A stretch of DNA of 64,000 bases from Candidatus Pelagibacter sp. IMCC9063. GTDB lineage: Bacteria > Pseudomonadota > Alphaproteobacteria > Pelagibacterales > Pelagibacteraceae. This document shows positions 52,246 through 55,459 of this stretch, one piece after another; within the stretch, counting starts at the first letter, position 1; every line of letters begins with the position of its first letter. The notes beneath the pieces were generated by a model that had not been told where the DNA came from, did not search any database, and saw nothing but the letters and a program-made list of their open reading frames with translations. The position numbers and the translations under genes are program-made. The stretch is from assembly GCF_000195085.1 (NCBI RefSeq), contig NC_015380.1, forward strand, positions 1,102,001-1,166,000, in the 5' to 3' direction.

Positions 52246-53153
52246 ATGCTTCCAATAGTTAATCATCCTGATTATGTAGCCCAAATTGGTGATGATCATC
52301 GCTTTCCCATAAAAAAGTTTGGTGCATTATTTGATCTTTTAAAAAAAGATAACATTTTAAATAAAAAAATTTGCATATTCCAGAGCCAGTTCAATATCTC
52401 GACCTAGCCAAAGCGCACCAGCCAGAATATATTCAAAAAATCGATAACCTCTCTTTGTCTAAAGAAGAAGAAAGAAAACTTGGTTTTCCAATGGTTCCGA
52501 GTGTCAAAAGAAGATCTTATATGGCAACTGGGGGGACTGTTTTGTCTGCAAAATTAGCTTTGAGTTACAAGTTAGCTTGCAATACTGCAGGAGGGTCTCA
52601 TCATGCATTTTCCGATTCAGGCAATGGTTACTGTGTCTTTAATGATGTAGCTGTTGCTGCCTACAATTTGCTAAACAAACATTCAGTAAAAAAAATTCTA
52701 ATCTATGATCTGGATGTACATCAAGGTGATGGTACTGCTAAAATTTTTGAAAACAATGATCAAGTCTATACTTTCAGTGCTCATTCCAAAAAAAACTATC
52801 CCCTTGTAAAGCAACAAAGCAACCAAGATTTAGAACTGGCAGATGACATCACTGATGAGGAGTATTTAAATACTGTATCAAAAAGTTTAGAGCTTGTTAA
52901 TAAAATGAATTTTGATTTTGTGTTTTATGTAGCAGGCGTGGATATCCATAAAGATGATAAGCTTGGTAAATTAAATATTACGACAGAAGGAATTGAAAAA
53001 AGAGAAAAAATGGTAATTAACAATTTTTATAAAAACAAAATTCCTTTGTGTGGAGTTTTGGGAGGAGGATACAATAAAGATTTTAATCATCTAGTGTATT
53101 TGCATTCAATTCTTCATCGAACTTGCCATGAAATATTAAGCAATGAACATTAG
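52246..53153 (+). CDS. Histone-deacetylase-like (AcuC/HDAC) amidohydrolase, with apparent frameshift
   Basis: The first frame begins LPIVNHPDYVAQIGDDHRFPIKKFGAL; the second continues HIPEPVQYLDLAKAHQPEYI and carries the HDAC core: GSHHAFSDSGNGYCVFND near residue 120, the Zn-binding Asp/His in IYDLDVHQGDGTA near 158 and Asp in GVDIHKDD near 222. Bacterial members act on acetylated amines or polyamine-like small molecules. The join is at a run of seven A (52363-52369); an eighth A restores a frame of about 302 residues through LNKKNLHIPEP. It lies 25 bases after the FAD dehydrogenase stop and overlaps the photolyase-like start. Confidence 0.87.
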
Positions 53154-54291
53154 AGATGAGGCATTAAGCCGGTTAGAAAATTTTTCTAATAACAACTTAG
53201 GAAAATATGCTGCAGAAAGAAATTTTGATCCTGGCCCAGTAAACAGAAACAATACAAGCTTATTATCACAATATATAAGTCACCGGATTATAGATGAGCA
53301 GGAAACTATTCGGTCTGCTTACAGTAAACTTCCCTTTAAAAAAATTGAAAAATTTGTTCAGGAAGTTTTTTGGAGAACTTACTGGAAAGGCTGGCTAGAA
53401 ATGAGACCACAGGTCTGGGATGATTATAACCACGACCTAAAGAATTTACATAATGAATTGACCAGCTCTAATTATAAAGAGGCCATAGAAGGAAATACTA
53501 AAATATCATGCCTTAACGATTGGGTTTTAGAATTAAAGGAATTTGGCTACTTACATAATCACGCACGTATGTGGTTTGCTAGTATTTGGATTTTTACACT
53601 AGGATTGCCCTGGCAGCTTGGCGCGAATTTTTTTCTTAAACATTTACTAGATGGAGATCCAGCATCAAACACACTAGGCTGGAGATGGGTTGCGGGGCTT
53701 CATACTAAGGGTAAGCATTATCTAGCTGCAGAATGGAATATTAATAAATTCTCCTCTAAAACGTATGAGCATTTAAATTTAAATGAACAAGCGCAAGCTA
53801 AGCATGAGGATAGAAGTTACGACATTCAGCCCATCTTATTTGATGAGATCAATAGTGAAGATTCTTTATTTGTTTTTCACAATCTAGACTGCTCTCTTCA
53901 TCTTGCGGAAAAAGAAATAAATTTTAATCACTACGCGGTTATAGACTTCACTTCCATTTTAAAAAAAGAAAGGTATTCACAAAAAGTGTTGGATTTTAAG
54001 ATTAGATCTAATCAGTATCTAACAACAGTTCTTAAAGAACGGTTTAACTCCCAAACGGTCATCCAAAACAAAGATGATTTTCAAACTATAACAAAAGAAA
54101 AAAGCATTAAAAATATCATATTTCCTTATCTTGCTGTTGGATATGAAAATGATTTTATAAAAGAGATTAAGAAAGAGTTTAATATTTATTATCTAGCAAG
54201 AGACTATGACAAACATTGCTGGCAATATTCGACCAAAGGTTTTTTTAAGTTTAAGGAACAGATACCTAAAATTTTAACAAAAATTTTATAA
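53143..54291 (+). CDS. Cryptochrome/photolyase-like FAD-binding protein of unusual domain order
   Basis: The 382-residue protein begins directly with a photolyase FAD domain instead of the usual alpha/beta antenna domain: SLLSQYISHRIIDEQETIR near 40, KFVQEVFWRTYWKGWLEMRP near 70, NHARMWFASIWIFTLGLPWQLGANFF near 140, LLDGDPASNTLGWRWVAGLHTKGKHY near 165. Residues from about 228 on form an alpha/beta part (DSLFVFHNLDCSLH, IIFPYLAVGY, FNIYYLARDYDKHCW, ATKGFFKFK-like end STKGFFKFKEQIP) that looks like the usual N-terminal domain moved to the C terminus. Domain placement is inference. The gene overlaps the HDAC gene by 11 bases. Confidence 0.82.
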   Translation: MNIRDEALSRLENFSNNNLGKYAAERNFDPGPVNRNNTSLLSQYISHRIIDEQETIRSAYSKLPFKKIEKFVQEVFWRTYWKGWLEMRPQVWDDYNHDLKNLHNELTSSNYKEAIEGNTKISCLNDWVLELKEFGYLHNHARMWFASIWIFTLGLPWQLGANFFLKHLLDGDPASNTLGWRWVAGLHTKGKHYLAAEWNINKFSSKTYEHLNLNEQAQAKHEDRSYDIQPILFDEINSEDSLFVFHNLDCSLHLAEKEINFNHYAVIDFTSILKKERYSQKVLDFKIRSNQYLTTVLKERFNSQTVIQNKDDFQTITKEKSIKNIIFPYLAVGYENDFIKEIKKEFNIYYLARDYDKHCWQYSTKGFFKFKEQIPKILTKIL

Positions 54292-54339: not shown

Positions 54340-54879
54340 TCATGCTCTTCGCATACCCCAAATTTGAAAAGGTTTGAGTGAGTTAGTACAAAGTTCAAGC
54401 GATATATTTCTCATTAGGTGAACTGGCGTTCCACCCCCACCTTGCTTGGATTGTCCTTGATTAACAGTAAGACATAATTTTTTATTACTGATCGGATGAA
54501 TCTTGCCTTTATTGCTCCATTCAAATTTCTGAAGTTTACTATAATCACACTTTCCAAGTTGCAGATTAGATGACGGAATAACGGATGAAGCTGTCATGCA
54601 AACATTAAATGAAGGCATGAAGAATTGATTTTTAGTCAATTTAGTAGAATCAAAGCCTTGGTCTACAGATATTTCTCCTTGGTAAGAATAACAAGTGTGA
54701 GCCTGAAGTGCTTTGTTAATTTTTGCTTTTAATTTATGGCCCCTTATATCGATACAATAACCTCTAGGCTCATCCAATTGATTTACTAAATAAATTTCAA
54801 CACTATCATTAGTAATTTTACTCAACGTAATATTTGGTAGAAATAAGAATAGATAAATTAAAAAAATTAGTTGTTTCAT
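54340..54879 (-). CDS. Secreted ricin-type beta-trefoil domain protein
   Basis: A 179-residue protein with a signal peptide (KQLIFLIYLFLFLPNITLS) and cysteine-rich repeats spaced like a ricin-B beta-trefoil: GYCIDIRGHKLKAKINKALQAHTCYSY, FNVCMTASSV, LGKCDYSKLQKFEWSNKGKI, KKLCLTVNQGQS, and PFQIWGMR. The KFEW and PFQIW ends are QxW-type elements and CL/CID turns the typical sugar-site starts. It may bind glycans in the periplasm or outside. I placed the start at ATG 54879, which begins the signal peptide; a longer frame to 54978 would lie in the SOUL gene. It is 10 bases downstream of the SOUL gene on the same strand. Confidence 0.7.
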   Translation of the reverse strand: MKQLIFLIYLFLFLPNITLSKITNDSVEIYLVNQLDEPRGYCIDIRGHKLKAKINKALQAHTCYSYQGEISVDQGFDSTKLTKNQFFMPSFNVCMTASSVIPSSNLQLGKCDYSKLQKFEWSNKGKIHPISNKKLCLTVNQGQSKQGGGGTPVHLMRNISLELCTNSLKPFQIWGMRRA

Positions 54880-54889
54880 ATCGCTGTAC

Positions 54890-55459
54890 TTATTTTTTCC
54901 AATCAATTCTAAACATAACCTCATTGCGACGAAAAGGTGGAGGTGTAAAAGGAGCATTGTAAGTTGCTTTAATAGCAAATCCTTTCACTGAAACTTTATC
55001 TTCGATAAGTTTTTGACGAAGAATGTCGCTATGTTTTGTAAAATTTTTTTTAGAAGCCCATCCAGAGTATTCAATTACTGCAAAGTAGCCCTCCTTAATC
55101 GTTTCGATTGTTACCTCTGAATTGGTCGGGTTAGGAACTGTTTTTTTACTAAATTTGGAAGGAAGATAAAATTGCATAACACTGGTATTATTTTTATTCA
55201 TTTGAGTAACTGGAATGGTCATTTTTATCTTTTCAGAAGTGTTATTGGCTCCATTAATATATTTAAAAAGTTTTCTAAAAGCTCCGCTCTCTTCTTCCAT
55301 AACAGCCTGAACTATTAACCTATCCTGATACAACCTTATTTCGTAACCATTTTGTTTTTTAACAACGTTATATTTCGCCTCTTCATTTGCCATGCTTACA
55401 GAGTATGAAAAAAATACTGAAAAAAAAAGAGCAAAAAAAAATATTAGATTATTTTTCAT
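54890..55459 (-). CDS. SOUL family heme-binding protein
   Basis: A 189-residue protein with a signal peptide (KNNLIFFFALFFSVFFSYSVSMA) then a SOUL/HBP fold: YNVVKKQNGYEIRLYQDRLIVQAV near residue 28, FRKLFKYINGANNTSEKIKMTIPVTQ near 60, MQFYLPSKF near 95 and YNAPFTPPPFRRNEVMFRI at the end. The IKMTIPV motif is the family hallmark. Relatives bind heme or tetrapyrroles. Its neighbours are a photolyase-like gene and a SulP gene, and photolyase-SOUL pairings are seen in other bacteria, as I recall. Confidence 0.9.
   Translation of the reverse strand: MKNNLIFFFALFFSVFFSYSVSMANEEAKYNVVKKQNGYEIRLYQDRLIVQAVMEEESGAFRKLFKYINGANNTSEKIKMTIPVTQMNKNNTSVMQFYLPSKFSKKTVPNPTNSEVTIETIKEGYFAVIEYSGWASKKNFTKHSDILRQKLIEDKVSVKGFAIKATYNAPFTPPPFRRNEVMFRIDWKK

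Follow-up and report, generated by a model that had tools for sequence, protein, structure and literature searches.

The gene at positions 53143..54291 (+) of the window, i.e., the whole stretch of 64,000 nucleotides of "Candidatus Pelagibacter sp." IMCC9063 that was analyzed, very probably codes for a photolyase of the NewPHL/short photolyase-like (SPL) class, predicted to carry out the light-driven, FAD-dependent splitting of cyclobutane pyrimidine dimers (CPDs), probably in single-stranded DNA. As judged from an in-frame stop upstream and from the predicted structures of both domains, the domain order of this 382-aa protein is inverted, with the photolyase FAD domain first and an antenna-type alpha/beta domain last. 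The open reading frame starts with ATG, and the two motifs that were first taken as antenna-like, IYYLARDYDKHCW and STKGFFKFKEQIP, are both found within its translation. Reading the sequence ahead of it, the in-frame codons are TAA (53137..53139, +), GCA, and then ATG. With only one codon between this stop and the start, no upstream antenna domain is possible for this protein, and the missed start further upstream that the preliminary description had considered can be discarded. The open frame likewise begins one codon ahead of the match in the relatives L001, L002, and L004. Three parts can be distinguished in the model: a helical N-terminal FAD domain (residues 1-219; 53143..53799, +), a linker to which DSSP assigns neither helix nor strand (residues 220-240; 53800..53862, +), and a C-terminal alpha/beta domain with the predicted fold of an antenna domain (residues 241-382; 53863..54288, +). 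Pfam recognizes FAD_binding_7 at residues 71-194 (model positions 1-127 of 203, E 1.7e-17), and its scan of the C-terminal part gave no match at all.

The full-length structure was modeled with an alignment of 64 sequences and reached a mean pLDDT of 96.0 and a pTM of 0.92. Using VIA-align, residues 1-223 of this model were superimposed on residues 176-416 of the Thermus photolyase 1iqr (Z 15.9, rmsd 2.9, 212 residues), and the photolyase FAD domains in the list were matched across residues 1-219; the absence of a family from such a list does not by itself exclude it. Photolyases also ranked first when the whole model was searched with Foldseek (1iqr, E 6.7e-6). The sequence search of the PDB retrieved no close relative, the best match being a class I photolyase (E 2.1e-23) along the FAD domain only. 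Among the photolyases of the full-model list, there was one chain that is not a photolyase by its title, 7pub_Ff, from a trypanosome mitoribosomal small subunit assembly intermediate. This chain (7pub_Ff and 7pua_Ff) matches both photolyase domains, with Z values of 14.2 and 7.8, and its antenna-like part (205-421) precedes the FAD-like part (488-734). Apparently, it represents the photolyase fold outside photolyases.

The C-terminal 155 residues (228-382) were also modeled alone (pLDDT 91.0, pTM 0.84). In VIA-align, they were best matched by 8ijy (its residues 2-158; Z 10.6, rmsd 3.6, 142 residues), and Thermus 1iqr was matched at residues 2-148 with a Z of 9.8. Ranks 1 to 14 were all N-terminal domains of photolyases and cryptochromes, and a universal stress protein (Z 8.4, 110 residues) was the highest-ranking chain of another fold, ca. 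2 units below the best photolyase. Best Z values of 7 to 8 are often obtained with models that match nothing clearly, and the weight is placed here on the coverage of nearly the whole domain; the Z of 10.6 is a good match, not an overwhelming one. The alignment is colinear, with the order kept from the first strand through the last helices; the whole domain would, thus, have been moved with its own topology unchanged. A chance likeness of the two motifs is superseded by this whole-domain alignment. Together with the in-frame stop, the predicted structures support a circular permutation in which entire domains have changed places. The preliminary description had arrived at the same domain order, at an antenna-like C-terminal stretch, and at a circular permutation from the sequence, and all three hold in the models.

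By sequence methods alone, the homology of the C-terminal domain with antenna domains appears weak. In local hhalign comparisons, the E value was 0.01 with the antenna domains of 29 class I enzymes and 0.0085 with 15 DPRP domains, next to 0.032 for the universal stress protein control and 0.34-0.40 for the reversed controls, all of them with probabilities of <5%. A profile search of the PDB with this domain found three unrelated sequences only (E 0.34-1.3), and Foldseek with the C-terminal model gave nothing at E ≤ 0.001, PPAT leading its list with photolyases and universal stress proteins lower down. It was the fold match to 8ijy, rather than sequence methods or Foldseek alone, that ruled out a C-terminal domain unrelated to the antenna domain. 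In the Pfam annotation of 64 family members, FAD_binding_7 was present in 64/64, and the other families were scattered, weak, and unrelated matches found in 1 to 5 members. A weak match that might serve as a bridge between both domains comes from the Deinococcus relative L136, in which Pfam DNA_photolyase was found after the FAD domain, at residues 300-395 of 456 (E 7.2e-4; 20 bits, i.e., under the curated cut-off of 26.6). The gene is located on plasmid p380k of Deinococcus sp. AJ005 (1387-2757 of L136, +). Its 456-aa product has the FAD domain first, followed by a stretch with several cysteines, and may be an inverted photolyase with an Fe-S cluster from outside Pseudomonadota.

The same fold could be read in another way, with the C-terminal domain of a domain-swapped photolyase still binding an antenna chromophore (MTHF, FMN, or lumazine). 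The match to antenna domains does run over nearly the full length, and the highest ranks are taken by prokaryotic (6-4) photolyases carrying antenna chromophores, tied within Z 1 with the Thermus photolyase. However, only 4 columns of the domain are invariant in the family alignment, and most of its best-conserved columns are located near the C-terminal end (R353, D356, W360, G366, F368, K371, I374, and P375), a clustering that in our view fits an interface or a FAD-sealing role better than a pocket. Emmerich and colleagues reportedly assigned a FAD-sealing role to it in 2020. In addition, no match to cofG or cofH was found in the genome at E 0.001, and this host is unlikely to make 8-HDF by that route, judging from its gene content. 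This result bears on the different chromophore arrangement that the preliminary description had raised as a possibility. Altogether, we regard the binding of an antenna chromophore as improbable. Equally doubtful is the broader version, in which the SAR11 C-terminal domain has kept or regained a chromophore other than 8-HDF, or docks light capture to another process, making the protein more than a minimal single-strand CPD photolyase.

For the NewPHL/SPL-type CPD photolyase that we favor, residues were mapped by alignment with the Anacystis nidulans photolyase (1owl), and their conservation was counted over 64 aligned sequences. In that enzyme, we take E283, W286, N349, M353, and W392 to be the CPD-pocket residues and W390, W367, and W314 to be the electron-transfer Trp triad. 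The equivalents of the former, E74 and W77 (53362..53373, +), N139 and M143 (53557..53571, +), and W182, were each present in 64/64 sequences. So were N176, equivalent to N386, the partner of FAD N5, the proximal W180 (this cluster of N176, W180, and W182 at 53668..53688, +), and the middle W157 (53611..53613, +). The FAD contacts used for mapping were taken from PMC9426592, and PMC12083526 describes the FAD N5 asparagine as conserved in NewPHL. The distal W314 aligns with N104, in a column where the commonest letters are D (19/64), E (11/64), and N (8/64) and Trp is not among the eight commonest. The stretch around it is gap prone, with Trp in 6/64 at column 103 and Tyr in 30/64 or Trp in 19/64 at column 111, which leaves the alignment at the distal position open to doubt. 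Apparently, the inner two Trp have been kept and the outer one lost, resulting in a Trp dyad, and another residue may possibly act as the third electron donor. Of the FAD contacts and W-triad proposed for checking at the outset, the N5 asparagine and two of the Trp are present in the alignment, and the third Trp apparently is not. Cysteine is conserved in the majority of sequences at C123 only (58/64), with Cys in no more than 19/64 at any other column, so there is no four-cysteine Fe-S set.

In the mechanism that we propose, the N-terminal domain would bind FAD, which would be photoreduced via W180 and W157, and the dimer would be flipped into the pocket lined by E74, W77, N139, M143, and W182. 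Blue or UV-A light would then drive the splitting of the CPD by this FAD-dependent enzyme, with an electron passing from FADH- to the dimer, and the C-terminal domain would cover the FAD site rather than carry an antenna. The single-strand preference has been carried over from the published enzymes of D. shibae and M. mesophilicum and probably applies here.

The conservation of the CPD-pocket residues and of the FAD N5 asparagine (64/64 each) indicates a repair function. This bears on the light sensor suggested in the preliminary description, i.e., a cryptochrome-like protein that no longer repairs DNA and signals by means of its swapped domains. Such a role could draw on the domain order itself, on a C-terminal domain that may offer a surface to a partner, and on the overlapping deacetylase-family neighbor in the window, an adjacency seen in 3/80 loci. 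Nevertheless, none of the five mapped pocket residues varies among the 64 sequences, no homologue of the neighboring gene was found in 77/80 fetched stretches (some of them short), and published proteins with the inverted architecture do repair CPDs (PMC9426592 and PMC13274461). The suggestion has gained no positive support, and we consider a sensor very unlikely.

Scanning genome contigs, we obtained at least 586 confirmed relatives, of which the best 80 were fetched and are, thus, a set chosen for good matches. All of these 80 match the query from residue 11 or before to residue 377 or beyond. They include Pelagibacteraceae, other Alphaproteobacteria (among them Roseobacter-group genera), some Gammaproteobacteria, and Verrucomicrobiota, the closest within this best 80 being L001 (Pelagibacteraceae), with 91% identity. 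In a sample of 197 genomes of Pelagibacteraceae, the IMCC9063 genome included, 156 gave a match and 41 did not. Counting from the listing, 134 had a strong match (E 2.6e-114 or better), reaching model position 382 or beyond in 129 and ending between 211 and 305 in the other five. The remaining 22 matched only weakly (E 1e-28 or worse); among the matches listed, those of this strength extended along roughly half of the model and were located in frames of 465-490 aa, which is what ordinary photolyases would give. Since these relatives show the same architecture (the same order in all 80 fetched loci, the best of at least 586, and full-length strong matches in the family sample) and the C-terminal part has an antenna fold, a truncated or misassembled ordinary photolyase with an unrelated C-terminal part is refuted for practical purposes, even if two other genes of the assembly have apparent frame breaks. 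Plasmid records contained seven proteins with matches to ≥80% of the query, and six of these bear the annotation "FAD-binding domain-containing protein," e.g., WP_011536985.1 of Ruegeria sp. TM1040. A phage origin was rejected: tblastn against 50,697 phage records matched 10, none spanning 80% of the query, and a search of viral structures yielded a single match at E ≤ 0.001, the photo-lyase of Tetraselmis virus 1 (221 columns), with the rows below weaker or unrelated.

A tree was built from the FAD domains of 57 proteins, with a midpoint root for drawing only. The 25 proteins of the window type, the window protein among them, formed a single group (100/100), shared by relatives from Roseobacteraceae (e.g., Ruegeria sp. 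TM1040, L135). Relatives from Deinococcus and Persicobacter adjoin this group (98/86), both on long branches, while the class I enzymes (100/99) and those of the DPRP type (100/100) are separate from it, also on long branches, and some rows, including the window type, have an odd amino acid composition.

The domain-swapped architecture is already known from the NewPHL/SPL class (PMC13274461 and PMC9426592). According to these and PMC8948257, such proteins have the FAD domain first, followed by a C-terminal "Z-domain," repair CPDs in single-stranded DNA, and use a Trp dyad, the D. shibae NewPHL having "a mere Trp dyad" (PMC8948257). NewPHLs named in the literature come from D. shibae, M. mesophilicum, E. 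litoralis, and R. centenum; the primary papers on the class are Emmerich et al. 2020 (NAR 48:12845), Xu et al. 2021, and Lacombat 2021, and SPLs are described in PMC9178010, PMC9649867, and PMC9498864. A literature search combining photolyase and circular permutation gave no title on the subject, the class going under the names short photolyase-like, NewPHL, and inverted domain. The window protein fits as a NewPHL member, an assignment made by architecture, residues, and the published descriptions of NewPHLs such as those of D. shibae (A8LJA9) and M. mesophilicum (M7YZC8). It has the inverted topology (in-frame stop, full and C-terminal models), the FAD N5 asparagine, no set of Fe-S cysteines and, at the level of the alignment only, the Trp dyad. 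The same features, with a short antenna-type Z-domain comparable to the C-terminal domain described here, are given for NewPHL and for Phr7 of Prochlorococcus, the latter also without the four-cysteine Fe-S set (PMC9426592); compared by description only, no difference from the window protein was found.

Neither SPLs nor the window protein (in-frame stop, model) have an N-terminal alpha/beta domain, and their FAD domain is similar to that of class I CPD enzymes (PMC9178010 and PMC9649867). For the window protein, the statement that an SPL "lacks the alpha/beta domain" would be better put as the domain sitting at the other end. Some SPLs, as reportedly found by Xu and colleagues, carry four Fe-S cysteines, unlike the window protein. 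The reversed order with the FAD domain first is also known from Synechococcus Phr4 and Phr5 and Cyanobium Phr6, but these keep the Fe-S cysteines and a DNA photolyase domain recognized by InterPro (PMC9426592). The class I CPD photolyase of A. nidulans (1owl) shares the FAD-domain fold, the mapped CPD pocket, and the proximal and middle Trp, whereas its antenna domain is located ahead of the FAD domain and the window protein apparently has no Trp at the distal position. The prokaryotic (6-4)/FeS-BCP enzymes (8ijy and 4dja) have an N-terminal domain to which the C-terminal domain of the window protein is structurally closest, but they have the opposite order, a DPRP domain (no PF04244 match was found in the window protein), and, in most, four Fe-S cysteines, and they belong to a separate tree group.

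Structure prediction indicates that the SAR11-type "short" photolyase has not lost the antenna-type domain and carries it at the other end, and this relocated domain is relevant to the question of whether the family descended from antenna-less proteins of the SPL/NewPHL type. In other respects, the enzyme is typical of a class that has been described before, present in abundant aquatic bacteria and common in the relatives of the host.

The genome of IMCC9063 (1.28 Mb, one contig) has three places with FAD_binding_7 and one with DNA_photolyase. Besides the gene in the window, FAD_binding_7 is found in two genes outside it: a class I photolyase (L084, 563-1977, -; ca. 958.7-960.1 kb of G000:C1), which, next to a T-rich run, is split between two ORFs that overlap and differ in frame, and a DPRP-type (prokaryotic (6-4)-like) enzyme of 498 aa (L083, 1255-2751, -; ca. 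1222.0-1223.5 kb of G000:C1). None of the three proteins, whole or in pieces, reached the NCBIfam cut-off for DASH, although the DASH model was the best NCBIfam row for the DPRP-type protein (23.4 bits, the cut-off being 317). The absence of a DASH-level match would fit a NewPHL standing in for DASH enzymes, as Emmerich and colleagues reportedly proposed in 2020.

Upstream, a histone-deacetylase-family ORF (52371..53153, +; Pfam Hist_deacetyl, E 6.9e-54) overlaps the photolyase ORF by 11 bases and is a neighbor, not part of the enzyme. A functional link between both genes was set aside, with a homologue adjoining the photolyase in only three of the 80 fetched loci. The deacetylase-family gene (52246-53153, +) is spread over two frames near an A run (52246-52404 and 52371-53153), and in the close relative L001 it is a single open frame of 302 aa. 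The break may be either real or an assembly error, and, together with that in the class I photolyase, it hints at homopolymer errors in the assembly. On the other side of the photolyase, two ORFs on the minus strand were inspected by eye: one of 212 aa (54340-54978) looks like a secreted beta-trefoil lectin-type domain, and one of 189 aa (54890-55459) looks like a SOUL-type heme-binding protein.
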